From a virus, in IMG/VR virus record IMGVR_UViG_3300021962_000529, positions 1 through 27,096 of that record: DNA of 27,096 nt. One strand, 5' to 3'. Each line of letters begins with the position of its first letter. Position 1 is the first letter of the stretch. A program made the translations under genes and the position numbers. This document shows positions 1-20,820 of the stretch, one piece after another. The notes beneath the pieces are model-generated. The model did no database searches. It saw nothing but the letters and a program-made list of their open reading frames with translations, and had not been told where the DNA came from.

Positions 1-880
1 TACCTCCTGTAGTATTAGCTTGTAAAGCACCGTTACCAACAGCAGTATTAAAACAACCCGTTGTGTTATCTCTTAATGCACCACAACCTAAAGCTGTATT
101 AAGTGTTCCTGTTGTATTACTTCTTAATGCATAAAAGCCTACGGCTGTATTGTTTGAGACTGTATTACAGTATAAAGCATCTTTACCTATAGCTACGTTT
201 TTAGCTCCGGTTAAGTTACTGTATAAGGAGTTTACACCTACAGAGATATTAAAGTTACCGCTTACGTTTTTCTGTAAGGCGTTAGAACCTACTGCTATAT
301 TTTGTGTACCTGTAGTATTGTCTCTAAGAGCTAGTGTACCGACAGCTGTGTTATTACAACCTGTGGTGTTGCGGTAAAGTGCACTGGCACCTACTGCAGA
401 GTTATTATTACCTGTGGTGTTAAAACGAAGTGCACATGCACCCATTGCAGAGTTACAAAAACCTGTGGTGTTGGCGTAAAGTGCATTTAAACCCATTGCA
501 GAGTTACCAAAACCTGTGGTGTTGGAGAAAAGTGCATTTACACCTACTGCAGAGTTATTATTACCTGTGGTGTTGAAACGAAGTGCATTTAAACCCATTG
601 CAGAGTTACAACAACCTGTGGTGTTGGCGTAAAGTGCATTTGCACCTACTGCAGAGTTATTATTACCTGTGGTGTTGAAACGAAGTGCATTTAAACCCAT
701 TGCAGAGTTACAAAAACCTGTGGTGTTGGCGTAAAGTGCATTTAAACCCATTGCAGAGTTACCAAAACCTGTGGTGTTGGAGAAAAGTGCACATGCACCT
801 ATTGCAGAGTTACCAACACCTGTGGTGTTAGTAGCTAAAGCACTATTACCTAAAGCTGTATTAATAGCGATACTACCTCC
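1..880 (-). repeat. 51-bp tandem repeats encoding 17-residue NTTG/AVG units
   Basis: About 17 tandem units of 51 bp encode ALxxNTTGxxN(S/T)A(V/M)Gxx in the fibre frame. One unit near 150-165 is a codon shorter (it reads NTVSNNTAVG). Units between 360 and 800 are nearly identical in DNA. There is a higher-order period of 255 bp, or five units: the block starting at 461 recurs at 716. Units below 360 are diverged (for example NVSGNFNISVG). The pattern resembles head-domain repeats of trimeric adhesins and fibre tips. The near-identity points to recent unequal recombination. Confidence 0.9.
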
Positions 881-3823
881 ACCCATACCAACAGAAACAT
901 TACCATTTACTAGTAAGTCACCATTTGGTTGTTGACAAGTTGTACTGTCTCCAACAGTAGTATTTGTTGTAAACTTAACAATGAAGTCTTGAGTACCACT
1001 TAAAGATACTGAAGTACCTGAAGAACCTGCGGTGGCTGATGAGCCTGAAGTACCTGCTGAGGCGGAAGTACCTGAAGAGGCTGAAGTACCGCTTGAGGCA
1101 CTTGTACCTGAAGTACCTGAAGAGGCAGATGAACCTGAGGTACCATCTGTACCTGAGGTACCTGATGAACCTGATGTTCCACTAGTAGCTGAAGAACCAG
1201 ATGAGCCGGCTGAGGCTGAAGAGCCTGAACTGCCAGAAGTACCATCTGTACCTGAAGTAGCTGAAGAGCCTGAACTGCTTGAAGTTCCACTTGTTCCACT
1301 TGAGGCTGAAGTACCTGAAGTACCGCTAGTAGCTGAAGAACCAGATGAACCAGATGAGGCTGAAGAGCCTGAGCTACCTGAAGTACCACTTGTAGCACTA
1401 GAACCTGAACTACCTGAAGTACCTGATGTAGCTGAAGAGCCTGAAGTACCAGAAGAAGCGCTTGTTCCTGAAGTACCAGAAGAAGCACTTGAACCTGAGG
1501 TACCATCTGTACCTGAAGAACCACTTGTTCCGTTTGTACCTGCTGTTGAGGAAGTACCTGAAGTTCCGTTTGTACCTGAAGTACCTGAAGAACCAGATGA
1601 GGCTGAACTGCCTGAGCTTCCTGATGTTCCACTAGTTCCTGAGGAACCTGAACTACCAGAAGTACCTACTGAACCACTAGTACCTGATGTACCTGATGAG
1701 GCTGATGAACCTGAAGTGCCGGATGTTCCAGAGGAACCATCACCACCAGAGGCACCGTCAAGGTTTATAGTCCAAGAAGAGTATGTTCCACCTCCTACTG
1801 TACGAGTAGGAGCAAAGAATACAAGTTCACCAGTACTAGGATTGTATGTGTTAATTTCACATTCTTGATAATTTGTAGCATTGAATACTATGATGATAGA
1901 TTGGGCAGGAGTATACGCTAAATCCGTGCCTATAGCCATTGTACCTGCGTTACCTAAGGTAAATGATGTAGCTGATGTAGTTTTGTATCTATCGCCACTT
2001 AAACCGGAAGATCCAGTACTACCTGAAGTACCTGATGAGGCAGATGAGCCTGAAGAACCTGAAGTTCCTGAAGAGGCAGATGAGCCTGAACTACCAGATG
2101 AGCCTGAAGAGGCTGAACTACCTGAAGAGCCTGAAGTTCCTGTAGAACCTGAAGTGCCAGCACTAGAGGAAGTACCACCTGTTCCTGAAGTACCACTTGT
2201 ACCATTTGTACCAGCTGTACCAGAGGATGAACTAGAACCAGATGTTCCAGAAGTACCAGATGAAGCACTTGAACCTGAGGTTGCTGAAGTGCCTGAAGTT
2301 CCTGAAGAACCAGATGAACCAGATGAAGCTGAAGAACCAGATGAGCCTGATGAGGCTGAAGAACCAGACGAGCCTGATGAGGCTGAGGTACCACTTGTAC
2401 CTGATGAAGCAGATGAACCTGAAGAGCCTGAAGTGCCAGATGAAGCAGATGTTCCACTTGTACCTGAGGTACCAGATGAGGCTGATGAACCTGAAGAAGC
2501 TGAAGAACCAGAAGTTGCTGAAGTGCCTGATGTTCCTGAAGTAGCTGAAGATCCACTTGATCCGGCACTACCAGAAGAACCTACTGAGCCATTTGTACCA
2601 CTTGTTCCTCCTGTACCTGAAGAAGAAGATGTTCCTGAAGTACCTGATGTACCAGATGAGGCACTTGAACCTGAAGAGGCTGAAGTTCCACTAGTACCTG
2701 AAGTAGCTGAAGAACCTGATGTTCCGGATGAACCACTAGAACCACTTGTACCATCTATACCTGAGCTACCCGATGTTCCACTAGAACCACTTGTTCCTGA
2801 TGAACCTGATGTTCCTGATGAACCTGATGTTCCATCTGTACCAGAACTTCCAGACGTTCCCGAAGAACCACTTGAACCCGAGGTACCACTTGAACCACTT
2901 GTTCCTGATGAACCTGATGTTCCTGATGAACCTGATGTTCCATCTGTACCTGAACTACCCGATGTTCCTGATGAACCTGAAGAACCAGATGTTCCATCAA
3001 TACCTGACGAACCCGAGGTACCACTTGAACCACTTGTTCCTGATGAACCTGATGTACCACTAGAGCCGGAAGTTCCATCTGTACCTGACGAACCTGACGT
3101 ACCACTTGAACCTGATGTTCCATCTATACCTGAACTACCAGATGTTCCTGATGAACCTGAAGAACCGCTTGTACCTGATGAACCTGAGGTTCCGTCAGTA
3201 CCAGAACTACCCGATGTTCCTGAAGAACCGCTTGTCCCAGATGAACCTGATGTTCCATCTATACCCGAACTACCGGATGTTCCCGATGAACCCGATGAAC
3301 CGCTCGTTCCGGACGAACCTGAAGTACCATCTGTACCCGAACTACCCGATGTTCCTGAAGAACCGCTAGTTCCTGATGAACCACTTGTGCCATCTATACC
3401 TGAACTACCAGAAGTTCCCGATGAACCCGAAGAACCGCTTGTACCAGATGAACCCGAAGTACCATCTGTACCTGAACTACCTGAAGTTCCGTCTACACCA
3501 GAACTTCCGCTAGTTCCTGATGAACCACTTGTGCCATCTATACCTGAACTACCAGAAGTTCCCGATGAACCACTTGTACCTGAAGAACCAGATGTGCCAT
3601 CCACACCTGAAGAACCTGAAGTACCATCTGTACCAGAACTACCTGCTGTACCTGAAGAACCACGTGGGCCAGCTGTGGCTACTTGAACTACAGTAGTTAC
3701 AGGTTGGGTAACATTTACATCTACATTGTCAACTTGATTGACAATTTTAATGCTATTGTCATTTGTTTGGATGTCAACATTATTGACATCTGAGTTGATG
3801 TTTATCTGATTAGGTGTAGCCAT
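1..3823 (-). CDS. Giant collagen-like tail fibre/adhesin, 3' end outside window
   Basis: This is the dominant gene of the left end. The frame opens at the ATG at 3823 (N-terminus MATPNQININ) and I read it without a stop to position 1, so at least 1274 residues are visible. Residues 1-51 are an Asn/Val/Asp-rich head, probably the part that attaches to the tail. Gly-X-Y triplets start at Gly52 (GPRGSSGTAG) and run to about residue 940, mostly as GTS, GSS, GTD, GID and GVD. A non-repetitive island interrupts them at about 605-694. After a linker (about 940-985) comes an array of 17-residue ALxxNTTGxxNSAVGxx units. Collagen-like shafts and such terminal repeats are typical of trimeric phage fibres. 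A C-terminal intramolecular chaperone (peptidase S74 type) would be expected beyond the window, but that is inference. The ATG overlaps the stop of the upstream gene by one base (TAATG). The fibre role is likely; receptor and attachment point are unknown. Confidence 0.88.
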   Translation of the reverse strand, partial: MATPNQININSDVNNVDIQTNDNSIKIVNQVDNVDVNVTQPVTTVVQVATAGPRGSSGTAGSSGTDGTSGSSGVDGTSGSSGTSGSSGTSGSSGIDGTSGSSGTSGSSGVDGTSGSSGTDGTSGSSGTSGSSGSSGTSGSSGIDGTSGSSGTSGSSGTSGSSGTDGTSGSSGTSGSSGSSGTSGSSGIDGTSGSSGTSGSSGTSGSSGTDGTSGSSGTSGSSGSSGTSGSSGIDGTSGSSGTSGSSGTDGTSGSSGTSGSSGTSGSSGTSGSSGIDGTSGSSGSSGTSGSSGTDGTSGSSGTSGSSGTSGSSGTSGSSGSSGTSGSSGTDGTSGSSGTSGSSGTSGSSGTSGSSGIDGTSGSSGSSGTSGSSATSGTSGTSASSGSSASSGTSGTSGTSSSSGTGGTSGTNGSVGSSGSAGSSGSSATSGTSGTSATSGSSASSGSSASSGTSGTSGTSASSGTSGSSGSSASSGTSGTSASSGSSGSSASSGSSGSSASSGSSGSSGTSGTSATSGSSASSGTSGTSGSSSSSGTAGTNGTSGTSGTGGTSSSAGTSGSTGTSGSSGSSASSGSSGSSGSSASSGTSGSSGSSASSGTSGSTGSSGLSGDRYKTTSATSFTLGNAGTMAIGTDLAYTPAQSIIIVFNATNYQECEINTYNPSTGELVFFAPTRTVGGGTYSSWTINLDGASGGDGSSGTSGTSGSSASSGTSGTSGSVGTSGSSGSSGTSGTSGSSGSSASSGSSGTSGTNGTSGTSSTAGTNGTSGSSGTDGTSGSSASSGTSGTSASSGTSGSSATSGTSGSSGSSATSGTSGSSGSSASSGSSGSSATSGTSGTSASSGTSGTSSSSGSSATSGTDGTSGSSGSSASAGSSGSSATSGTSGSSGTSGTDGTSGSSASSGTSGTSASSGTSASSGTSASAGTSGSSATAGSSGTSVSLSGTQDFIVKFTTNTTVGDSTTCQQPNGDLLVNGNVSVGMGGGSIAINTALGNSALATNTTGVGNSAIGACALFSNTTGFGNSAMGLNALYANTTGFCNSAMGLNALRFNTTGNNNSAVGANALYANTTGCCNSAMGLNALRFNTTGNNNSAVGVNALFSNTTGFGNSAMGLNALYANTTGFCNSAMGACALRFNTTGNNNSAVGASALYRNTTGCNNTAVGTLALRDNTTGTQNIAVGSNALQKNVSGNFNISVGVNSLYSNLTGAKNVAIGKDALYCNTVSNNTAVGFYALRSNTTGTLNTALGCGALRDNTTGCFNTAVGNGALQANTTGG
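1016..1743 (-). repeat. Distal collagen-like Gly-X-Y repeats with many Gly-to-Ala substitutions
   Basis: On the minus strand this part of the fibre reads as triplets such as GTS, GSS and ASS. The third-position glycine is often alanine (GCT/GCC in place of GGT/GGC), roughly once every few triplets, and occasionally serine or threonine. The plus-strand shadow reads as Pro-Glu-Val with alanines at the same register. Frequent loss of glycine would weaken a true collagen triple helix, so this section may fold differently or be more flexible than the proximal one. Confidence 0.85.
1744..2010 (-). other. Globular island inside the collagen-like shaft (about 90 residues)
   Basis: The Gly-X-Y pattern stops and about 90 residues of ordinary-composition protein appear in the same frame. 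They begin SGDRYKTTSATSFTLGNAG, include AYTPAQSIIIVFNATNY, and end APTRTVGGGTYSSWTINLDG before the repeats resume. Alternating hydrophobic residues suggest a small beta-rich domain. I have a memory of similar islands between GTSG-type repeats in environmental phage proteins but cannot verify it. It could be a knob, a branch point or a trimer-register element. Confidence 0.75.
2011..3665 (-). repeat. Proximal collagen-like Gly-X-Y repeats
   Basis: This stretch encodes several hundred residues of Gly-X-Y triplets, mostly GTS and GSS, with regularly spaced GTD, GID and GVD triplets. From about 2709 to 3660 I see glycine in essentially every third position. Between 2011 and 2708 alanine often replaces it. 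There is almost no proline, so any triple helix would depend on Thr/Ser rather than Pro. Synonymous codons vary between units (TCA, TCT, AGT, TCG), so the DNA repeats are less perfect than the protein repeats. Confidence 0.9.
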
Positions 3824-4242
3824 TATTGTAAAGTAACTTGTTTAGCAAGTTGTACTTGTCCTTCTAATAATCTTGTTCTAATACTACCTGAGGTGATTTC
3901 TAAATCGTAGTAAGCTGATCCTGTAAAGTTTATATCTTGAGTGGCATACCATCCTGCATATACTCCTATAGATCCTGATACAGGAGGAGTAGTTAAGTTA
4001 CTTCCTGAAAAACTTAAAAAAGAACTTTGTGAAGGAAAACCACCAGCATATTGAGATCCTGATAAGGCTGGGAAGGTAAGATAAGTAACAGTGCCTGCAC
4101 TACCACTATATCCAGAACGAATCTGCATGAAACCTGTGTATCCTGTTAAGTCTACAGGTAATCCATCAACATCTGTATATTGTAATTCAAAGCTTAGTGT
4201 AGCGCCCTGCTCTATTGTAAATGAATATCTTCCTGCAGCCAT
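3823..4242 (-). CDS. Small beta-rich virion protein upstream of the fibre
   Basis: A 139-residue protein beginning MAAGRYSFTIEQGATLSFEL. It contains VDLTGYTGFMQIR near residues 31-43 and a C-terminal half YYDLEITSGSIRTRLLEGQV. This layout (opening beta strands with a 'QGAT' turn, an 'LTGYT..MQIR' strand, and an 'LLEG.V' ending) recurs in small beta-sandwich proteins next to phage tail fibre or baseplate genes. No catalytic motif or membrane segment is visible. Its stop codon shares a base with the fibre start, so the two are translationally linked and it may be an adaptor or fibre-attachment protein. The tail role is inferred from context and composition. The ATATTTATAA motif lies 9 bases before the ATG, and no Shine-Dalgarno sequence is evident. 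Confidence 0.75.
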   Translation of the reverse strand: MAAGRYSFTIEQGATLSFELQYTDVDGLPVDLTGYTGFMQIRSGYSGSAGTVTYLTFPALSGSQYAGGFPSQSSFLSFSGSNLTTPPVSGSIGVYAGWYATQDINFTGSAYYDLEITSGSIRTRLLEGQVQLAKQVTLQ

Positions 4243-4271: not shown

Positions 4272-5003
4272 TTAGTTCTTCCTACCACTTGAACCTGAAT
4301 TGCCTAAGGAAATTCCTTGTTCAGCAGCTTCTTCATAGTATGTTATAAGATCCTCTACAATTGGATGTCTATGGTTTGTTTTAAGAGAAATAGCACATAA
4401 GTCCTTTATCTTTTTGGCTGCTGTATATAAGAATCTAAAACCAGAATCACGTTTTGATTTTAAATCTACTTGAGCATCATCTCCACAAATGATCATTTTT
4501 GAACGTAAACCAAGTCTGGTTACAATCATTTCCATTTGTTCATGAGTTACATTTTGAGCTTCATCCACTATGACAACTGAATCAAGGAATGTACGGCCTC
4601 GCATAAAGCTTAAAGGTACTATCTCGATTTGACCAGCTTGTATGAGTTGTTCCACTTTAACTTTGTCATATAACGCGTACATGTTTTGGTATATCGGTTG
4701 TACCCACGGGTCCATTTTCTCACGTAAATCACCAGGTAAAAATCCTATTTCCTCTTTTGATACTGTAGGTCTAGTAATAATAACTTTTTCAGCTTCTTTC
4801 ATAAATAGCTTCTCTAGTGCTATTTGGCAGGCTAGAAATGTTTTACCTGAGCCTGCTGAACCGGCTAACAACGTAACTGTATGTTGTAATATTTTTGCTT
4901 TGGCTTCTTTTTGTTCGGGGTTTAATTCTGTTTTAAACTTAATTGGAGTTTTGGGTTTGCGCTTTTCCTGGAAGATAGGATCTTCGTGGTGGTGTGAAGC
5001 CAT
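4272..5003 (-). CDS. phoH: PhoH-like P-loop ATPase
   Basis: A 243-residue PhoH-family protein, a cytoplasmic P-loop ATPase related to the helicase fold. Family members bind ATP and are linked to RNA metabolism; PhoH-like genes are common in marine phages, but their phage role is unsettled. Walker A is GSAGSGKT at residues 48-55. The family signature TRPTVSKEEIGFLPG spans 77-91, DPWVQP is at 98-103, Walker B is VVIVDEAQN at 143-151, and the sensor-like ICGDDAQVD is at 172-180. The length matches the single-domain phage form. The C-terminus ends in a short Gly/Ser tail (GNSGSSGRKN). It follows the structural gene ending at 5030 and precedes the tail-fibre pair. Confidence 0.96.
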   Translation of the reverse strand: MASHHHEDPIFQEKRKPKTPIKFKTELNPEQKEAKAKILQHTVTLLAGSAGSGKTFLACQIALEKLFMKEAEKVIITRPTVSKEEIGFLPGDLREKMDPWVQPIYQNMYALYDKVKVEQLIQAGQIEIVPLSFMRGRTFLDSVVIVDEAQNVTHEQMEMIVTRLGLRSKMIICGDDAQVDLKSKRDSGFRFLYTAAKKIKDLCAISLKTNHRHPIVEDLITYYEEAAEQGISLGNSGSSGRKN

Positions 5004-6030: not shown

Positions 6031-7704
6031 TTAAAGGGTATTTAAACCGTTTACGTAGATCTTACCGTAGAATTCCGGACGAAGCATCTTCTTAGCGTAG
6101 CGAGTCAAGAGACCTTTTCTTGGAGTGAAGGTATCTGGATCGTAGATAAGAGGAGTCATGATCAATGGAATGTAAGGAGCGAACACAGCACCGGCCTCAA
6201 GGAACTGAGTACCACGGAAGCCCATAAGGATCGTGTTTTCAGTCATGTAAGGGTTCTTGTAAACTGTGTAGCGGCTGTTCAATTGACCAGCTTTCTGTAC
6301 ACCGAATGCGTACTCCATCTTGGCAGCATCACCATCGCTGTTAGAAGCGAATCCTGGGATTGACTCGATGATAGTAGCAACTGTTGGAGAACATACTAAG
6401 AAGTTTGCACCACCACGAAGAGTTAACTGGTGAATCTTGTTAGAAAGTTTCTGCATCTTAGTACCAAGGGTTTGGAACCACTGGCCCTGAGTGTTGTAGA
6501 AAGCGCTTGGAGAAGCTACTGGAGCAGCTTGACCTGAACTTGTAACAACGAAGTTGTTGATGGCTGACCAGTACTCAGTACCAGCGGCAGCGTCTTCAAT
6601 CAACATGTCTAAGATTTCGAGGTCGATTTCAAGAGAGATGTACTCACTCATGATGTTTGTAACCTCAGCTTCAGCGTCAAGAGCTTGATAAGCATTCAAG
6701 TCTTGAGCGAATTCAGGTGTCCAAACTGCCTTTAATTTCTTAGTCTTGGCTACGATAGCCTCTGAACGCATACCGATGTTGATCTCTGGGATAACAATTT
6801 CAGTAGCACTTTCAGCGTTAGGAACTGCGTAAGCATTTCCAGCTTCGAAATCACCAACTTGGTATGGAGACATTGTAGTCTTCTTGTTGTACTCAAGTAC
6901 GTAATCACCACCAACACCAACTTCAGCTGTAGAAGCAGTTAAGTAGAAAGTAAGAGTAGTTGTACCATTGAAGGTTGTGAAAGCTGGTAAGTTTCTAGAT
7001 ACGTTAAGAACTGAACCAGAAGTTAGGATAAAGCCACGAACTGCGTCAGTGTCCATAGAAGCTGATACAGCACCAAGAGCACCTAAGGTGATCTTCTTAA
7101 CAGTACCAGAAGCGATAGAAGCTGAGAAAGCTGAATCGTAGTTTAAGTCAGCCCAAGAGGCTGTAGTTACAGCAGAAGCAGTAGCTACAGTGTAAGAAGC
7201 TGAGAATTGGTTGGTTGAGTAGGTAAATCTACCAGCACCGTAAAGACCACCTTCAGCTGCAGGAGTTGAGAATGGATACTGTGAACCAGTGTTACCGTAA
7301 AGTGATTGACCTTCAGTGAATGGGTTCTTTGCAGTACCATACTGGAAGTCAAGGTAGAATACAAGACCAGAAGGAAGGTTCATTGGCTGAACAGAAACGA
7401 ATTCCTTAGCAGCGATTTGTCCGAAGACCTTACGTACTAATGGAAGAGCGATACCTGCCCACTCAGCACCTTGACCTACTGTGAAGTTACCGTAGCCAGA
7501 ACCGCCACCTACTGATGACTGCTCAACTACAAGTTGCTTGGCTTGGTTTTCGAGGATAAGAGACATGTTGTTCTTGTCGGTTTCTGAACGAAGACCTTCA
7601 AGAAGTCCAGTCACTTCCCACTTGGCAGCTAATTTAGCTGCGTCAGACTGCATGTTCTTCCATCCAGAAGCTGCAGACTCAAGAAGTTGTTGTACTTGTG
7701 ACAT
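6031..7704 (-). CDS. 23: Major capsid protein, T4 gp23-like
   Basis: A 557-residue protein forming the hexameric shell of the head. The N-terminal ~60 residues (MSQVQQLLESAASGWKNMQS onward) look like the gp23 delta region removed by the prohead protease. The HK97-type core begins near residue 73 with FTVGQGAEWAGIALPLVRKV and then AKEFVSVQPM, the counterpart of the gp23 block 'GIALPixRR...VSVQP'. The C-terminus contains the conserved-looking MTPLIYDPDTFTPRKGL. Possible cleavage sites of the (L/I)xE type are after LLE36 or ILE52; the exact site is not determined. Ala/Ser/Thr-rich sequence around 170-260 may be an exposed insertion. The start is ATG without Shine-Dalgarno but with an A-rich leader. 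It follows the scaffold gene and is closed by a terminator. Confidence 0.96.
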   Translation of the reverse strand: MSQVQQLLESAASGWKNMQSDAAKLAAKWEVTGLLEGLRSETDKNNMSLILENQAKQLVVEQSSVGGGSGYGNFTVGQGAEWAGIALPLVRKVFGQIAAKEFVSVQPMNLPSGLVFYLDFQYGTAKNPFTEGQSLYGNTGSQYPFSTPAAEGGLYGAGRFTYSTNQFSASYTVATASAVTTASWADLNYDSAFSASIASGTVKKITLGALGAVSASMDTDAVRGFILTSGSVLNVSRNLPAFTTFNGTTTLTFYLTASTAEVGVGGDYVLEYNKKTTMSPYQVGDFEAGNAYAVPNAESATEIVIPEINIGMRSEAIVAKTKKLKAVWTPEFAQDLNAYQALDAEAEVTNIMSEYISLEIDLEILDMLIEDAAAGTEYWSAINNFVVTSSGQAAPVASPSAFYNTQGQWFQTLGTKMQKLSNKIHQLTLRGGANFLVCSPTVATIIESIPGFASNSDGDAAKMEYAFGVQKAGQLNSRYTVYKNPYMTENTILMGFRGTQFLEAGAVFAPYIPLIMTPLIYDPDTFTPRKGLLTRYAKKMLRPEFYGKIYVNGLNTL

Positions 7705-9143: not shown

Positions 9144-9749
9144 TTAGAAAACTGGGCAAGTTCCTTTGGCACATAAGATATCTGTTAGGATACCATTTAC
9201 TTTACCATAAGAGTTTGCTTTATATTCTTTTCCTTCATTTACCAAATGCATATATGAACCTGGGTTTGAAGGGGTTGAGACAAAGTCCCAACATAGGAGT
9301 TCGAAGTCGTCTTGTACTTCCATCATACCACCAGACATAGGTTTTAATGAACCCATACCTCTTGATGATACACCTACCATTACTCCATTGTCGATAAGTG
9401 CTTTTAGAATGTTGCCTGATACTGTCGGTAGAATTTCGATTTTACCTATGACATTATCGCCGTCCCACCATAAATCACGGATGATGTGGCAAACGTTTTT
9501 TAAGTTGATTATAGACGAATCTGGATGATCTAATTCACCTGTGGCTCTACTTTGTCTAACCACATCCATATATTTTTCTATTTCTCTTTTCCAGAGATCT
9601 TTAGCGTAATATCTACCATTACCATTTTTAACTTGAGCAGTAGCTAAGATTCCTTCAACAATAGGATTGCCTGCTGGAGACTTATAGCCCTCAGTTAATT
9701 GAACAGGTGCAACCTGGAATGGTAGGGTTTCAATAAGTACTTGTTTCAT
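9144..9749 (-). CDS. 21: Prohead maturation protease, T4 gp21-like
   Basis: A 201-residue serine protease of the T4 gp21 family (herpes-protease-like fold). It degrades the scaffold and trims capsid proteins after (L/I)xE motifs. GNGRYY at 43-48 is the substrate-groove motif. The catalytic His is in GELDHP (His75), and the nucleophile is in VGVSSRG (Ser128 or Ser129). The DFELLCWDFVSTPSNPG block is typical of the family C-terminal strand. A likely self-cleavage site is QLTE20|G21. Length and motifs are complete, so it should be active. Its start overlaps the upstream stop by one base (TAATG). Confidence 0.95.
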   Translation of the reverse strand: MKQVLIETLPFQVAPVQLTEGYKSPAGNPIVEGILATAQVKNGNGRYYAKDLWKREIEKYMDVVRQSRATGELDHPDSSIINLKNVCHIIRDLWWDGDNVIGKIEILPTVSGNILKALIDNGVMVGVSSRGMGSLKPMSGGMMEVQDDFELLCWDFVSTPSNPGSYMHLVNEGKEYKANSYGKVNGILTDILCAKGTCPVF

Positions 9750-12378: not shown

Positions 12379-14250
12379 TTACTCAGTCAGATTAGATTCG
12401 TCTAATAATGATTCTGCCGACTTATTTTTAGCGTAAACTATTTCTTTACTTAATGATTCTAATAAAGCTTTATTTTTGCTTTCTAATGCTAAAGGTGAAC
12501 CTCCTTTGTAATTAGGAGTACCATATCCTTCTTGATCGTCTTTTTTATTGTCTTGACGACCAAGTCTGTCTCTACCAAATGCATTTTGTTGAGTATTGAT
12601 ATTAGAAGCCTTTTCTTCAGGTCTGCCTAATTTTTTATCCTCATCATATCCATCAGGTACTGAACCATCCTCATATCTTCCTCTACCATATAGAGAAGCT
12701 AGATCATGTGGTGTACCGTATGAACGACCTGTTTCAACTGGGTCATTACCTTCTTCAGTAATTTGTTGGATTCTAAAGTTACGTTTAGCATCCTCAACTG
12801 CTAGGTCTCTATACTCATCATATTGATCAGCACTGAATTGGAATACATTGTCATAGATCCAATCTGAAGGAATAATTTTAGTATCTAGCATTTCTTTAGC
12901 TAAGGCTACTTTTTCTTTTAATAGAGCAATCTTTTCTTGTTCAGCAATGATTGAAGGAGTAGTTAAACTTAATTCAAAGTTTGTTAAACTTTCTCCATCA
13001 AATCCTTGAGTGTAAAGGTGTACTAAAGCAATTTTATATAGTTCAGATAATACAATACGCTGAATACGATCAATTGTACGAGCAAATCTAATATCTTCAG
13101 CTGCTAATGTAGCTTTACCTGTTAAGTCTTTTTCATAACCCATGAAGGCTTTAGGTACCTTAAGGGCAGCGAATAACTTATCTCTTAAGTAAGTTACATC
13201 TTGAATACCATCATAGTCTAGACCTTTTGTAGTGTCTATTTTAGTAGCTGAATCATTTCCTCTTACTGGGATATAGAAATCCTCAAGTAAGTTTTGCATG
13301 TTATACTTTTGGTTATACTCACCTGTTTTCTCATCTATTAGCGGAGTACGCTTCATAGTTGCGATAGTCTTTTGCATAAATGCTTCTACATCTTGAGGTG
13401 GAATATTACCTACGTTAACATAGAAAATACGTTTTTCTGGAGCACGAGCAATTCTATGGATAAGCATTGCATCCTCCATTAACACATATTGTTTGAATAG
13501 ACGGCGTGCTGGTTCTAGATAAGAGCGACCATAAGGAAGATAGTTAACATCTGTTAACAAACGGAAGTGAGCTATCTCATAGTTGTCAAATGCAATTTGG
13601 TTAGCATCTGGTTTAGTGTTTGGGGTTGAGTAGTAACCTGAACCTCCAGTATAGTATCCATCAGGTGAATAAAGGAATTGTACCTTTGAAGGATTAGCCA
13701 TATCAAAGTTTTCACGTCTTTGAATATGGTAAGCTGTATAAGGTACAACATTATAAACACCAAATTTTTCAGCGATTTCTAATTTGATAAAGAAATCACC
13801 ATACTTACACATTTGACGAATCCAAGACCATAGGTTGAACTCAATGTTAAGTACATCATAGAATAAGTTATAAAGGATTTTTTGGATATCATCATCGCTA
13901 CTTCTAATTTGAAGTACTTCACCCATATCATTCTTTAGAGTACATTCATCAGCTATAATATCTAAGGCAGAGGCTACAATTGCGTCTGTATCCATTGTAT
14001 CATAGTCATTATACAGATAAGTCCTAAGATACTGATACTGCATATTGAACTGCTGACCTAAAAGAGAGGTAGCAGCTGGGTTTGTATATATTTTATTGAA
14101 TTTATCTACTAAAGAGTTAGTTTGAAATTCACCACTAGTTTGGATATGATCAGTGTCAATTACTTTTAATTGACTTCCTCCTTGATTCCTGATGACTACA
14201 TCAGTTGAAAAGAGTCTTCTTAATCTTGAAAAAATACTAGTATCAGCCAT
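12379..14250 (-). CDS. 20: Portal vertex protein, T4 gp20-like
   Basis: A 623-residue portal that would form the dodecameric DNA-entry ring of the head. Family-type blocks include the N-terminal MDTDAIVASALDIIADECT (86-104) and GDFFIKLEIAEKFGVYNVVP (151-170). There is also the stem region with IARAPEKRIFYVNVGNIPP (267-285), MKRTPLIDEKTGEYNQKYNM (299-318) and LLEDFYIPVRG (321-331). These match the T4 gp20 pattern of 'RxPEKRxFYVDVGNxP...YxxxTGe....NMLEDYW.PRR.G'. The following helix RDKLFAALKVPKAFMGYE (356-373) fits the crown-proximal portion. Residues from about 495 form a Gly/Asp/Arg-rich low-complexity tail longer than the T4 ending. It follows the terminase by 23 bases, with no sheath or tube genes between them, unlike T4. 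Confidence 0.95.
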   Translation of the reverse strand: MADTSIFSRLRRLFSTDVVIRNQGGSQLKVIDTDHIQTSGEFQTNSLVDKFNKIYTNPAATSLLGQQFNMQYQYLRTYLYNDYDTMDTDAIVASALDIIADECTLKNDMGEVLQIRSSDDDIQKILYNLFYDVLNIEFNLWSWIRQMCKYGDFFIKLEIAEKFGVYNVVPYTAYHIQRRENFDMANPSKVQFLYSPDGYYTGGSGYYSTPNTKPDANQIAFDNYEIAHFRLLTDVNYLPYGRSYLEPARRLFKQYVLMEDAMLIHRIARAPEKRIFYVNVGNIPPQDVEAFMQKTIATMKRTPLIDEKTGEYNQKYNMQNLLEDFYIPVRGNDSATKIDTTKGLDYDGIQDVTYLRDKLFAALKVPKAFMGYEKDLTGKATLAAEDIRFARTIDRIQRIVLSELYKIALVHLYTQGFDGESLTNFELSLTTPSIIAEQEKIALLKEKVALAKEMLDTKIIPSDWIYDNVFQFSADQYDEYRDLAVEDAKRNFRIQQITEEGNDPVETGRSYGTPHDLASLYGRGRYEDGSVPDGYDEDKKLGRPEEKASNINTQQNAFGRDRLGRQDNKKDDQEGYGTPNYKGGSPLALESKNKALLESLSKEIVYAKNKSAESLLDESNLTE

Positions 14251-14264
14251 TGCTTAGGTTATTA

Positions 14265-14274
14265 TCATAAATAT
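14265..14274 (-). promoter_or_regulatory. Intergenic ATATTTATGA variant motif, copy 5
   Basis: The plus strand reads TCATAAATAT, one base off the consensus. In the coding sense the terminase stop codon TAA (14276-14274) runs into TATTTATGA, 14 bases before the portal ATG. Confidence 0.45.
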
Positions 14275-15842
14275 TAAAGGAGCCAACGGAGATCCTCTTT
14301 TTGTCCTCCCATTTCTTGAATGTATGGGTTTGGAACTGAATTGCCACTAAATATACCAGCTGTAGTGGTTTTAGTTATATTGTTGAGAGCGGCTCTAGTC
14401 ATGTCTAGGCCCTGTTGCTGGAATTTGAGTGAAGTGTCTCTTAAGAACATTGCTATACCAAATGACATTACCAAGTCATCATTATAGCCTGATTGTGCTT
14501 CTGGTCTACCATTACGCCATACAAACACCTTCATTTCCTCTAGTAAACGTTTAGAGTTGATGGTAACACTTCTATCACCAACATATTCTCTAAATTTATT
14601 TACCACAAGTGGTCTTGTTTTCATAGACATAGTAAAACCAGGAGTTAAATTATCACTAAACTCATATCGATTAAAATACGACTCAGCTGTTAATTGATCA
14701 CTCTTAGGTGATAAATAGAAGTTCTGATAGCCCCTTTCTTGGATTGTTTCAATAGTAGCCCAACCAATAGAGGCATTTTCTACTACTAATAAAGCATTAT
14801 TATATTCTGAAGCTAGACCTACAAGGAAATGTCCAAATTCTTTAGGACTTAATTGCCCCTTATATTCAGCTACTTGTGTGTTAGTGGCTATGTCCATGAC
14901 ATGGGCTGCAGAGAAGTCTTTACCGTCACCTCTAGCTACGTCAGCTACTACCATATAATCTCTAGAGTAATCAGCGGGTTCCCAAACCCATAGATTTTTA
15001 TCTGCACCTCGTCTTTCAACAGGTTCTTTGATAGTGGTTTGGGCTATAAATTCTAACCATTCAGAATAGAAAACAGTATCACCTGAGGTACTAAAGTCAC
15101 AGTCACATTCTTGGGCTGCTGCTCTAGGATCACCTAGTAATTCGTCTTGTTTCTTTCTCCATTCTTCATCCCTCTCTGGGTGGACATACCATGGTAATTT
15201 GATAGGTAAGAAGTCGTTCTCGCTCGCTTCTGCTCTCACCCATGTCTGGTGAAACCAGTTTCCAGTTCCATACGGTGTTGAAAGTACTATTGCTCCACCA
15301 CCTGTTGCAAGTGTTTGTTGTGCTGATGCCCATGTTTCTGCTACGTTATCGATAAATGCAGCCTCGTCAATTACTAGCAAAGATACTGCTTCTGAACGTG
15401 CTGCATCACTATTTGATGATTTGGCTTTAATTTGTGACCCATTTGCTAGTCTTAAACTCAAACGGTTGTTTTCTATCTCTTTTACTTTAAGCCAGGAAGG
15501 TAAGTTGTCATACATGAAACGAACCTTGGTAACCATGTTTTTGGCTGTTTCCTGAGTAGTTGCGAGACACAACACGTTTTTATCTTTATGGAAAGTCATT
15601 AACCATAAAGAATAACTAGCTGCTAGGGTTGAAATACCTAACTGGCGAGATTTTAAAACAATAGAGTAAGGATTGTCTCTCCACAAATGGAGTACTTTTT
15701 CCTGGAATGGGAATAGGTTAAAGGTGATTCTGCCTCGTTGTGGGTGTTGGATGTAACAGTATTTACGCATAAAGTGCCCTGGATCTTGAGCACATTTTAT
15801 GTATTCCTGTTGAATAATTTTTCTTAAATCCTGATCACTCAT
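14274..15842 (-). CDS. 17: Terminase large subunit, T4 gp17-like
   Basis: A 522-residue DNA-packaging motor with ATPase and nuclease domains that docks on the portal. The adenine-binding region is FNLFPFQ at 41-47. Walker A is the deviant phage form KSRQLGIS at 64-71, Walker B is LLVIDE at 155-160, and the coupling motif is LSTPYGTGNWF at 187-197. The RNase H-like nuclease acidic residues are Asp301 (VVADVARGDGKD), Glu355 (VVENASIG) and Asp455/456 (YNDDLVMS). All key residues are present and the length is close to that of the family, so it should be functional. The start overlaps the upstream membrane-protein stop by 4 bases (ATGA). Confidence 0.97.
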   Translation of the reverse strand: MSDQDLRKIIQQEYIKCAQDPGHFMRKYCYIQHPQRGRITFNLFPFQEKVLHLWRDNPYSIVLKSRQLGISTLAASYSLWLMTFHKDKNVLCLATTQETAKNMVTKVRFMYDNLPSWLKVKEIENNRLSLRLANGSQIKAKSSNSDAARSEAVSLLVIDEAAFIDNVAETWASAQQTLATGGGAIVLSTPYGTGNWFHQTWVRAEASENDFLPIKLPWYVHPERDEEWRKKQDELLGDPRAAAQECDCDFSTSGDTVFYSEWLEFIAQTTIKEPVERRGADKNLWVWEPADYSRDYMVVADVARGDGKDFSAAHVMDIATNTQVAEYKGQLSPKEFGHFLVGLASEYNNALLVVENASIGWATIETIQERGYQNFYLSPKSDQLTAESYFNRYEFSDNLTPGFTMSMKTRPLVVNKFREYVGDRSVTINSKRLLEEMKVFVWRNGRPEAQSGYNDDLVMSFGIAMFLRDTSLKFQQQGLDMTRAALNNITKTTTAGIFSGNSVPNPYIQEMGGQKEDLRWLL

Positions 15843-16246
15843 ATAAGCTTAATTACAAGAAAGGTTGTATTTAAAACAGCTACAGCCCATCCGGCTAATG
15901 CTTTAAGTTTTTCTTGTTTAATTTGTTTATCTTTTACTCCAATAATTTTATCTTTATTCTCTATCATTTCCAAGTAACGAACCTCGTTCTCGCGTTGTAG
16001 GAAGATAACATTCTCTTTATTGGTAAGCAAGGAATCCTGCCTAGAGGTAATATTGTTTAGAATGGAGATAGAGTCTCTAGCTACCACTAGTTGACCCTTT
16101 ACAAGTTCACACTCGTTTTTAAATATTAAGGCGTTTTTTAGTGTACGGCAAGGTACAGAGCAGTACTCTTCTTTATTGGAAAGCGTTTGTGAACTCGCTA
16201 ACCAAGGCATTACCAGTAAGCCCAGAAATACGATTATTTTTTTCAT
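15839..16246 (-). CDS. Secreted/membrane protein, probable second component of a spanin-like pair
   Basis: A 135-residue protein with a signal peptide-like start (MKKIIVFLGLLVMPWLASSQ), cleavage plausible after ASS. A cysteine pair follows in EYCSVPCRTLKNAL (Cys28 and Cys33), then a Glu/Lys-rich coiled-coil centre, then a C-terminal hydrophobic segment (LAGWAVAVLNTTFLVIKLI, 117-135). Its first 74 bases lie inside the 3' end of the upstream membrane/coiled-coil gene in another frame, the nested layout known from Rz/Rz1 spanin pairs. There is no lipobox at the signal peptide end, so it is not a classic Rz1 lipoprotein. It could instead be a holin-like or other envelope protein. It sits immediately before the terminase, where lysis genes can occur. 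Confidence 0.7.
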   Translation of the reverse strand: MKKIIVFLGLLVMPWLASSQTLSNKEEYCSVPCRTLKNALIFKNECELVKGQLVVARDSISILNNITSRQDSLLTNKENVIFLQRENEVRYLEMIENKDKIIGVKDKQIKQEKLKALAGWAVAVLNTTFLVIKLI

Positions 16247-16517
16247 TGTATTTTTGTTTATATGTATCTGCTTTGGCTTGAAGGTTTGCTAATTGGGCTT
16301 TGTCTTCTTGAATTTGAAGCTTATAACCTTCAGCTATACTATCTAGTTTAGCTATTTGAATATGGGTAGAGTCAACTTGAGCTTGAAGCGAGTCATTAGC
16401 TCGCTCAAGCTCGTTGATTTTATTTTTCAAGTCAGATCCCTGATCTAATCTTCTATAAATAGCTATTATAACAAGGATTAGAGCAATGTAACTTAAAATT
16501 CTAGTATATTTAAGCAT
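16173..16517 (-). CDS. Rz-like i-spanin candidate (inner-membrane anchor plus coiled coil)
   Basis: A 114-residue protein. Residues 5-22 are a single N-terminal transmembrane helix (TRILSYIALILVIIAIYRRL). The rest is a long coiled coil (about 28-100) with heptad Leu/Ile/Ala and many Gln/Asp, ending LTGNALVSEFTNAFQ. This is the topology of Rz-type inner-membrane spanins, which bridge to an outer-membrane partner and fuse the two membranes at lysis. The partner candidate starts inside the 3' end of this gene (74-base overlap). A gap of one base separates it from the upstream gene. No cysteine is present. No endolysin or clear holin is visible in the window, so the lysis role rests on topology and overlap. 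Confidence 0.7.
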   Translation of the reverse strand: MLKYTRILSYIALILVIIAIYRRLDQGSDLKNKINELERANDSLQAQVDSTHIQIAKLDSIAEGYKLQIQEDKAQLANLQAKADTYKQKYNEKNNRISGLTGNALVSEFTNAFQ

Positions 16518-17493: not shown

Positions 17494-17503
17494 TTATAAA
17501 TAT
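17494..17503 (-). promoter_or_regulatory. Intergenic ATATTTATAA motif, copy 6
   Basis: The plus strand reads TTATAAATAT. The kinase stop codon TAA (17505-17503) fuses into TAA-TAT-TTA-TAA. The spacing to the ATG at 17472 is 21 bases, the longest of the set. Confidence 0.5.
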
Positions 17504-18033
17504 TATAGACCTAACTGAAATTTAAGCTGTTTGATACGCTCCTCAGTTGGACCTTCTAATATACCATAATTTTTCATAAGTGACTTATATCGTTCAATTT
17601 GTCTAACAATAACAAAGTCAATAAGTTTTCTATATTCAAGATCAGTCTCACGAACTCCATTGTCTTCCATTTCTACTCCTTCAGGAGAAATATAGAAAAT
17701 ATAATCATATTCTTTAATTAGAAGACAGGCTAATGACTCAAAATCATATTTTTCTGTATGAGACATTGAATTGGATGCCTTAGCAAATGCTATAACATCA
17801 ATGATAGTACGATCTGTAATAATGTTTTCTTGCATTAATTCCATAGAACGTTCTGCTAGAAATACTAACTGACCTTTTAGAGTAGAGTCAGTGTTTAAAG
17901 GAATACCTTGTTCCATTAGATACTTAGAACGTTCTGTTCTAAAGTTGTAATCTTTAAATTCAGGTAACTCCTGTAAAGCTTTTACTAGTGTAGTCTTACC
18001 TACACTCATAGTACCACAAAAACCTATTTTCAT
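17503..18033 (-). CDS. NadR-like P-loop nucleotide/nucleoside kinase (AAA_28 type)
   Basis: A 176-residue cytoplasmic P-loop protein. Walker A is GTMSVGKT at residues 7-14. A lid/substrate region has RTERSKYLMEQG (33-44), and the DRTIIDVIAFAKAS motif (about 74-87) is typical of the AAA_28/NadR ribosylnicotinamide-kinase-like fold. The IFYISPEG strand (112-119) and a C-terminal helix complete a small kinase. Related domains phosphorylate nicotinamide riboside or other nucleosides. The substrate here is unknown, and no NMN adenylyltransferase domain is attached. Its start overlaps the cupin stop by 4 bases (ATGA), so the two are probably co-translated. Confidence 0.82.
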   Translation of the reverse strand: MKIGFCGTMSVGKTTLVKALQELPEFKDYNFRTERSKYLMEQGIPLNTDSTLKGQLVFLAERSMELMQENIITDRTIIDVIAFAKASNSMSHTEKYDFESLACLLIKEYDYIFYISPEGVEMEDNGVRETDLEYRKLIDFVIVRQIERYKSLMKNYGILEGPTEERIKQLKFQLGL

Positions 18034-18416
18034 GCTTGTGAATCTCCGGGTTTAATTCTATAACTGTCTGAATCGAAATGTTGAGTTGATACTTCAAATA
18101 TAGTAGCTCCATCTGTTAAGGCCAAGAGCTGATGAGGTTGTCCTGGGAGAAGGTGAATACAATCTCCTTCTTTAATTAGGATTTCATTTTGGTAAGCAGT
18201 TTCAGTATCAATATACTTGTATGTAAAGACACCTTTAGAAACATACCATGCTTCATCTTTAAGCAAATGGTAGTGCATTGAGAATTGTTTACCTTGTTTA
18301 AACACTAAAAGTTTACCACAATAGAGTTCATTATTGATAATCCAAAGCTCATGGCCCCAAGCTTTTTCTACTCGTTTACCTTCATAAGGTTGAGCTTGAA
18401 GTGAATGTTCTCTCAT
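18030..18416 (-). CDS. Cupin-domain protein
   Basis: A 128-residue single-domain cupin. Motif 1 is FSMHYHLLKDEAWYVSKG (45-62), giving metal ligands His48, His50 and Glu55. Motif 2 is HLLPGQPHQLLAL (88-100) with His95. The start KAWGHELWIINNELYCGKLL resembles the sugar-phosphate isomerase/mannose-6-phosphate isomerase type II branch of cupins ('xKPWGxexwi..'). A role in sugar-nucleotide or small-molecule modification is therefore possible, but the reaction is not predictable. It lies 2 bases after the small gene upstream and overlaps the kinase downstream. Confidence 0.85.
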   Translation of the reverse strand: MREHSLQAQPYEGKRVEKAWGHELWIINNELYCGKLLVFKQGKQFSMHYHLLKDEAWYVSKGVFTYKYIDTETAYQNEILIKEGDCIHLLPGQPHQLLALTDGATIFEVSTQHFDSDSYRIKPGDSQA

Positions 18417-19434: not shown

Positions 19435-19444
19435 TTATAAATAT
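19435..19444 (-). promoter_or_regulatory. Intergenic ATATTTATAA motif, copy 7
   Basis: The plus strand reads TTATAAATAT. The FAD-enzyme stop codon TAA (19446-19444) fuses into TAA-TAT-TTA-TAA, which ends 8 bases before the ATG at 19426. Confidence 0.5.
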
Positions 19445-20820
19445 TAAACGAAGTGTAAATGGTCATGAAAGTCTGGGTATAGATCTGGGTGATGGAAGTA
19501 GTTAAGAATATCTTCAGCTACATAAATTGCCTGAGCTCCTGAAACTGTGATACCACGAGCAGACAAAGCATCTCCTACAAAGTGTACATTTGGGAACTTA
19601 GTTAGAGACAAGTTGCGGTAGCTTACAAGTGGTTCAGGTGAAAGATATTTTACTTCAGGCATATAAATTCCCCAATCATCACCCAATGTTGGGAATACAA
19701 TTTGCATTTCTGTAATAAAATCTTCAATGTATTGAGCATATTCTTCACCTAATGCTTCAAACAAGGGATCCATATTATCAACTTGAACTGCTGATACTTC
19801 ATTACCTTCAGATGTAGTAGATGGTTTACGTGAAGGGCTATAGTAAGTACCAGTACCATTTACTTGAAGTTTTTTAACTGCCTCTCTTGACCATTCAAAT
19901 GGATTTGAAATACCATTGATTTCCATCAAGATGCCAAAATTGGTCATATCGTTTCGGTAACGCATATCTTTTTTAGCGTGACCATTGTAACTATGATCTC
20001 CATATGTTTCTTCTACAGCAACATAAGCGGCGTTATTGTTTGTACAGAATGAACGAAGTGAAACACCTTTATCTTCAAACTTTTTATACAACTTAAAGTC
20101 GTATGATATATCAATTAGTTTCTGGAAGTGTTTTTGTGGTGCCTCAAATCGAACACCAATCTGAACTGATTTAGGTTCGTCTGGAAGTTCATATTTGTTG
20201 GCTAATTCTTGAGCAAAGTCAATGCCTGATTTACCTACACCAAAAATAAGTTCATCATAAAACATACTATCGTTATCCATATTTGCGAATTCAGGTTTAA
20301 CTGATTTCATGATAACTTCGTTGTGTCTAAAATCGATGTTAGATACTTTAGTCTCCCAATGGAATTGTACACCTTTAGATACTAGATAATCATACCAATT
20401 CTTTCCAATCTCAGATAGGTAATCTGTACCTACGTGCCACACAGGAAACAAACGCAAACCAAAATATGGTTTAATAAAATCTGGTTCTGCTTCAGGATTT
20501 GAACATTGTACTTCCTCTGGTTTGGGATGGAAACGCTTGAAATTGGTAATTACTTGATCCATCAACTCCATTGCTTTTTCCTCACCACAATACTTAGACA
20601 ATTGGCCTCCAATTGCAGTGTGGTAAGTAAGTTTACCATCAGACCAACCACCTGCACCTAAGAAACCTGTCATTACTTCTTCAGGTTTGCGATTGTATGG
20701 GTCTTTACCCATATCAATGATTGTGATCAGTTCACCAGGATAACCTTTATCTACAAGTTTAGTAGCAGCATTAACTCCTGCTACGCCTGCACCTACGATT
20801 ACGATTTTCTTTTCCTTCAT
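19444..20820 (-). CDS. FAD-dependent dehydrogenase, COG2509-like
   Basis: A 458-residue flavoprotein. The N-terminal dinucleotide-binding loop is GAGVAG at 10-15, with Asp36 at the end of strand 2 (LITIID). GFLGAGGWSDGKLT at 52-65 corresponds to the 'GxGGxxxSDGKL' signature of COG2509 FAD-dependent dehydrogenases. FGVGKSGIDFA (193-203), QIGVRFEAP (220-228) and ISYDFKLY (238-245) match further blocks of that family. The C-terminal FAD loop is VHFVGDALSARGITVSGAQA at 412-431. The natural substrate of the family is not known to me. The protein looks complete and intact, so it is a candidate auxiliary metabolic gene. It stands between a hairpin and the accessory cassette, with no Shine-Dalgarno sequence. 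Confidence 0.9.
   Translation of the reverse strand: MKEKKIVIVGAGVAGVNAATKLVDKGYPGELITIIDMGKDPYNRKPEEVMTGFLGAGGWSDGKLTYHTAIGGQLSKYCGEEKAMELMDQVITNFKRFHPKPEEVQCSNPEAEPDFIKPYFGLRLFPVWHVGTDYLSEIGKNWYDYLVSKGVQFHWETKVSNIDFRHNEVIMKSVKPEFANMDNDSMFYDELIFGVGKSGIDFAQELANKYELPDEPKSVQIGVRFEAPQKHFQKLIDISYDFKLYKKFEDKGVSLRSFCTNNNAAYVAVEETYGDHSYNGHAKKDMRYRNDMTNFGILMEINGISNPFEWSREAVKKLQVNGTGTYYSPSRKPSTTSEGNEVSAVQVDNMDPLFEALGEEYAQYIEDFITEMQIVFPTLGDDWGIYMPEVKYLSPEPLVSYRNLSLTKFPNVHFVGDALSARGITVSGAQAIYVAEDILNYFHHPDLYPDFHDHLHFV

Follow-up and report, generated by a model that had tools for sequence, protein, structure and literature searches.

A predicted collagen-like fibre gene beside an LtfC/p132-like adaptor gene in a T4-like phage contig

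In phage DT57C, the LtfC protein forms a dodecamer at the tail tip, and nine LtfA N-termini thread through the LtfC ring, donating one or two strands each. The trimerising helix of LtfA begins at residue 40, and LtfC has been equated with gp135/136 of T5 (PMC10713586). In T5, p132 was described as a dodecameric collar, with density that is possibly about 50 N-terminal residues of the fibre, and the study terms p132 and p140 a landmark of T5-like phages only (PMC10038345). Collagen-like proteins have been described in E. coli O157 prophages (EPclA and its relatives), where Pro occupies about half of the X positions and charged residues are strongly preferred (PMC3368898).

We analysed a viral DNA stretch of 27,096 bases (the window), which is the whole of IMG/VR record IMGVR_UViG_3300021962_000529. 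A long fibre gene lies on its minus strand, and the 3' end of this ORF is beyond the record edge at base 1. Immediately upstream is an adaptor gene, 3823-4242, which was absent from an earlier sequence-only reading of this DNA. This LtfC/p132-like neighbour offers the best hint at the mode of fibre attachment, and we consider it probable that the two genes form an attachment cassette of a T4-like phage that works as LtfC and LtfA do. The features are listed below.

2..3823, minus strand: fibre gene, 1274 codons, ATG at 3823, stop-free to the contig edge
3671..3823, minus strand: N-terminal anchor, residues 1-51, in one family with 37 complete fibres
2708..3670, minus strand: shaft 1, residues 52-372, 107 unbroken Gly-X-Y triplets with one Pro
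1988..2707, minus strand: shaft 2, residues 373-612, 20 of 80 Gly positions replaced, mostly by Ala
1757..1987, minus strand: island, residues 613-689, non-repetitive and beta-rich, present in 22 viral loci
1010..1756, minus strand: shaft 3, residues 690-938, 19 of 83 Gly positions replaced
830..1009, minus strand: linker from shaft to array, residues 939-998
2..829, minus strand: NTTG array of 17-residue units, residues 999-1274, open at the edge, Cys at variable positions
1881..3686, plus strand: antisense shadow ORF (Pro-Glu-Val), not a gene
1032..1868, plus strand: antisense shadow ORF, not a gene
3823..4242, minus strand: LtfC/p132-like adaptor, 139 aa, predicted Ig-type fold, its stop codon sharing base 3823 with the fibre ATG
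4272..5003, minus strand: PhoH-like protein, the usual upstream neighbour of the cassette
6031..7704, minus strand: T4-type major capsid protein Gp23
9144-9749, minus strand: protease
12379-14250, minus strand: portal
14274-15842, minus strand: terminase

Relatives of the adaptor were found in 142 stretches of viral contigs, and 80 of these were retained as loci. A profile of 43 sequences (42 of the 80 loci plus the window protein) matched DT57C LtfC (E 0.0011), 26dk_M (E 0.003) and T5 p132 (E 0.004) in the PDB, values that are weak alone. The predicted structure of the adaptor (pLDDT 86.7) was aligned with DT57C LtfC and T5 p132 at Z scores of 11.8 and 11.7, with an rmsd of 2.0 Å over 112 residues and 24-25% identity, and the next match was at Z 9.5. 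In a Foldseek search with the same model, general Ig folds ranked first and LtfC/p132 were not among the best 50 matches. On the evidence of the model, the predicted adaptor has the LtfC/p132 fold. The gene arrangement is also similar: base 86055 of T5 belongs both to T5.135, a part of LtfC, and to ltf, a one-base overlap like that at 3823 in the window.

When the window adaptor was searched directly, C48C1 was the sole phage record found (24% identity). A relative of the C48C1 adaptor homologue occurs in 55 phage records, which by name are Synechococcus, Prochlorococcus, Methylophilales, Pelagibacter or marine viruses, or C48C1 itself. RefSeq cyanophage records annotate the adaptor homologues as 'L-shaped tail fiber protein assembly', and the presence of this family in T4-like phages is already visible in annotation. 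A literature search on LtfC or L-shaped fibres in T4-like or metagenomic phages, covering titles and the starts of abstracts, found no paper describing the cassette.

Where the adaptor would sit on the virion is less clear-cut than its fold, because the cassette lies between PhoH and a head-tail adaptor gene, a position that would suit a ring at the neck just as well. The adaptor would then encircle the head-tail neck, and the fibre would be a whisker like T4 fibritin, which senses or holds other fibres and does not bind the main receptor. The phrog_211-type head-tail adaptor gene lies downstream of the cassette in 43 of the 46 loci having that gene (upstream in 3, and not found in the other 34 of the 80 loci, many of which are fragments), the fibre genes of Melnitz directly precede two neck genes, and the adaptor model matches Ig-type chains from the neck of P74-26 and from the connector of Bas63 at Z 8.7. 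However, the best structural match is a tail-tip collar, about 2 Z units above any other, and the adaptor homologue is located near baseplate wedge genes in P-HM2 and near a tail fibre gene in S-CAM1. Very long fibres with exchanged tips are also better suited to receptor binding. We therefore regard the neck arrangement as unlikely, and a placement at the tail or baseplate as more likely.

To compare the C-terminal ends of the fibres, 12 open ORFs, three ORFs shorter than 170 aa and 13 with identical tails were dropped, leaving 52. Nine of the 52 ORFs plus the window have an anchor of fewer than 20 residues, and these relatives fit poorly with a long strand-donating anchor. Among the remaining 44, a single anchor cluster holds 38 (37 and the window). 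The six outside the cluster lie 375-600 bases away and are probably not the partner gene. By their C-termini, the 37 complete fibres of this anchor family form 18 clusters. The closest relative of the window, L002, is 90% identical in the adaptor, 91% in the anchor and 90% in the island, whereas it carries VGIGT repeats and a different C-terminus, with no significant match to the array and C-terminus of the window. L003 is the nearest complete LtfC-linked array fibre, with 74% identity in the adaptor, 62% in the anchor and about 50% in the NTTG array. Its end domain is of a non-S74 type common to L010, L064 and L069, and we take it, from sequence, as the best guess for the missing end of the window fibre. 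The adaptor and fibre look like a conserved port with exchangeable tips. Since the tips are exchanged behind a constant anchor, a role of the fibre in host range is plausible.

The proposed mechanism of the LtfC/LtfA-like cassette is as follows. Like LtfC in T5-type phages, the 139-aa adaptor probably assembles into a ring on the virion. The constant anchor of about 51 residues would thread into this ring and contribute strands, in the manner of LtfA in DT57C. The Gly-X-Y shaft, which starts right after the anchor, where the trimeric helix of LtfA starts, would hold the three chains together. The island and the NTTG array would lengthen the fibre, and the missing C-terminus, judging from complete relatives, would carry the tip. 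Tip swaps behind the constant anchor, which were observed across contigs, would alter what the phage binds.

In shaft 1, the commonest triplets are GSS (49) and GTS (41), together with GTD (7) and GID (6). Of 65 non-redundant downstream ORFs, that of the window among them, 48 have a Gly-X-Y repeat of at least 4 triplets that begins no later than residue 160. The sequence-only reading had called the shaft proline-free, which is nearly exact, as one Pro occurs in the first 107 triplets. It had further called a proline-free Thr/Ser shaft of this length uncommon, and this found no support among relatives: 50 of 67 Ser/Thr-rich segments of at least 20 triplets from all loci lack Pro, and perfect runs reach 130 triplets. 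The extraction of these 67 segments was biased towards Ser/Thr-rich ones, and the window is represented among them by fragment L001, its own run 49-612 having been removed as a duplicate. Proline-free Ser/Thr shafts thus appear to be common in this group.

A Ser/Thr-rich Gly-X-Y shaft with almost no Pro may fail to make a stable triple helix, and such stretches could instead be flexible, possibly glycosylated spacers whose likeness to collagen is merely compositional. The near absence of Pro, the few charged residues and the replacement of about a quarter of the Gly positions in shafts 2 and 3 would all suit a spacer. A free spacer would not need strict Gly at every third position, however, and shaft 1 has 107 consecutive perfect triplets. 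The 39 replaced Gly positions of shafts 2 and 3 (Ala or Ser) are never in adjacent triplets. Across the 67 segments, where the replacements are almost all Ala, only 9 adjacent non-Gly pairs were observed, whereas 2000 shuffles gave 30.9 on average and never fewer than 17; 4 of the 9 stem from a single L008 segment. This strict spacing suggests that every third residue is truly constrained, as it would be in a triple helix. In addition, Pro-rich GPQGP stems occur at the same position in relatives. A spacer is therefore improbable in our view, and we continue to read the shafts as the collagen-like part of an LtfC/LtfA-like cassette.

A bolder proposal joins two elements: triple helices built almost entirely of Gly, Ser and Thr that tolerate isolated Gly to Ala changes, and a universal T5-type collar port accepting any fibre with an anchor of about 50 residues, in T4-like phages of aquatic bacteria. 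We put it forward as a tentative possibility, more doubtful than otherwise. If it is true, the rule of Gly to Ala tolerance in the triple helix would differ from that of animal collagen. With these shafts, nature provides a way to test if a collagen triple helix is possible without proline.

The fibre frame was compared with its alternatives. The other two minus frames across the region contain 48 and 87 stops, and the best alternative, on the plus strand, has 12 stops and an open stretch of 604 codons. Between the window and L002, differences at codon positions one, two and three number 4/1/14 (anchor) and 7/2/16 (island), a pattern showing that the minus frame is the true protein and is under selection at the protein level. 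L002 has counterparts of both plus-strand ORFs, 1032-1868 and 1881-3686, which are mechanical by-products of the fibre gene. Hence the main structural claims of the sequence-only reading were borne out, namely a minus-strand frame starting at 3823 and open to the edge, plus-strand repeats that are only its shadows, and collagen-like shafts, an island and 17-residue NTTG repeats combined in one polypeptide, as the module map confirms. Its description of a giant collagen-like fibre is likewise supported by a match to Pfam Collagen (PF01391, E = 5.7e-80), by matches to many PHROG tail-fibre families, and by complete relatives sharing the anchor and modules. Long low-complexity repeats assemble poorly and the copy number may be wrong, but an assembly or translation artefact behind the frame and repeats is very improbable, as gene order, anchor and island recur in an independent contig, with differences at third codon positions. 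The predicted product is a virion fibre of modular build from a T4-like phage, and the fibre itself is an additional case of an already known fibre type.

The island domain comprises about 80 residues and was modelled over 1766-2005. Solved relatives sought by sequence gave only weak best hits (E 0.11 for the array, E 0.72 for the island), and a fold search with the island model gave no match at E 0.001 or better. The Pfam models of adhesin-head repeats (YadA-like head) had no match in the fibre at E 0.1. A Peptidase_S74 chaperone stands at the C-terminus of 24 of the 43 complete, non-redundant array proteins. Part of the array of the window (358-829) shows a 153-base higher-order repeat composed of three 51-base units, with 3.1 copies and 85% matches.

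The Cys content of the arrays was surveyed in 72 loci and the window, and 49 arrays with at least 8 units were scored, some rows being duplicate contigs. At least 0.3 Cys per unit was found in 17 arrays (0.67 in the window), a little in 7 and none in 25. The arrays compared include those of L116, L111, L109 and L143. In L116, a single frame between two stops spans 5474 residues, and its array region holds about 116 repeat units and 139 Cys. Cys occurs almost only at the variable positions 5, 6, 12, 13, 16 and 17. A disulphide ladder between neighbouring rungs was considered and rejected, with 50 same-position Cys pairs observed in 15 arrays against 49.9 after shuffling. A diversity-generating retroelement as the source of the variable residues was also rejected as having next to no likelihood, for although the variable codons 5, 6, 13, 16 and 17 of the first nine units all end in C or T, like mutagenised AAY, reverse transcriptase (PF00078) was found in none of 17 related records, some of 222-355 kb, and codons for Lys, Gln and Glu occur at these variable positions in later units of the window and in other arrays.

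PhoH is upstream of the cassette in 68 of the 80 loci (none found in 12) and a capsid gene in 63 (none found in 17), many loci being fragments. Gp23 was present in 28 of 32 records examined, which were chosen from the 80 loci. The capsid protein of the window is closest to that of Flavobacterium phage immuto (56.4%), followed by Microcystis phage Mel-JY01 (48.2%), and because of this similarity we would guess a Bacteroidota host. Phage immuto has PhoH and a head-completion protein, with no adaptor or fibre relative between them, and a literature search on immuto found no structural study of it. Between its capsid and PhoH genes, immuto has a 546-aa repeat protein (L103:21976-23616), and the window has an unrelated 219-aa gene there; the capsid-PhoH interval seems to accept different accessory genes. 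Elsewhere on the minus strand of the window, 19444-20820 may be an auxiliary metabolic gene, with a 458-aa product that resembles oxidoreductases (Pyr_redox_2, weak MCRA), and 17503-18416, close to the head module, encodes a P-loop protein (AAA_28) and, next to it, a cupin (Cupin_2). Two small overlapping ORFs lie at 15839-16517 (minus strand), one with a hydrophobic start and a heptad-like stretch, and we would guess that they might be a spanin-like lysis pair.

Compared with the known systems, the window adaptor shares with LtfC of DT57C and p132 of T5 its fold, a weak sequence similarity, a gene directly upstream of a side-fibre gene and the one-base overlap. Those proteins belong to T5-type phages, whereas the virus of the window is T4-like and its fibre stem is collagen-like and not helical. 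Homologues in T4-like cyanophages and in Melnitz belong to the same adaptor family, in T4-like marine phages. Like the window fibre family, T5 Ltf and DT57C LtfA adjoin the collar gene and have a constant N-terminus followed by a variable remainder; their stems are coiled coils and their distal modules are different, whereas the window fibre has a Gly-X-Y stem. No trimeric helix after about residue 40, as in LtfA, was found in the window fibre, which has Gly-X-Y from residue 52. The window anchor showed no sequence similarity to the N-terminus of T5 Ltf (hhalign probability 0.2%), and since the N-termini could not be aligned, the window fibre is not filed as an Ltf and is only described as working alike.

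Other parts of the fibre have counterparts elsewhere. EPclA and its relatives also carry a Gly-X-Y shaft in a phage fibre, but in the window shaft Ser and Thr dominate and Pro is almost absent. The NTTG-array tail proteins of Roseobacter phage CRP-7 and Pelagibacter phage HTVC111P have 17-residue repeats as in the window, 49-51% identical in the best phage records; the matches of such cultured-phage proteins are confined to the array, about 22% of the query, and the whole architecture was found in none of them. The pairing of a p132-fold adaptor with a fibre gene across T4-like contigs suggests a portable clamp. In that case, the anchor would serve as a sequence handle for the receptor-binding fibres of uncultured T4-like phages, and tip exchange would become measurable. 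What is new here is that a T5-type clamp is paired with collagen stems, in T4-like phages.
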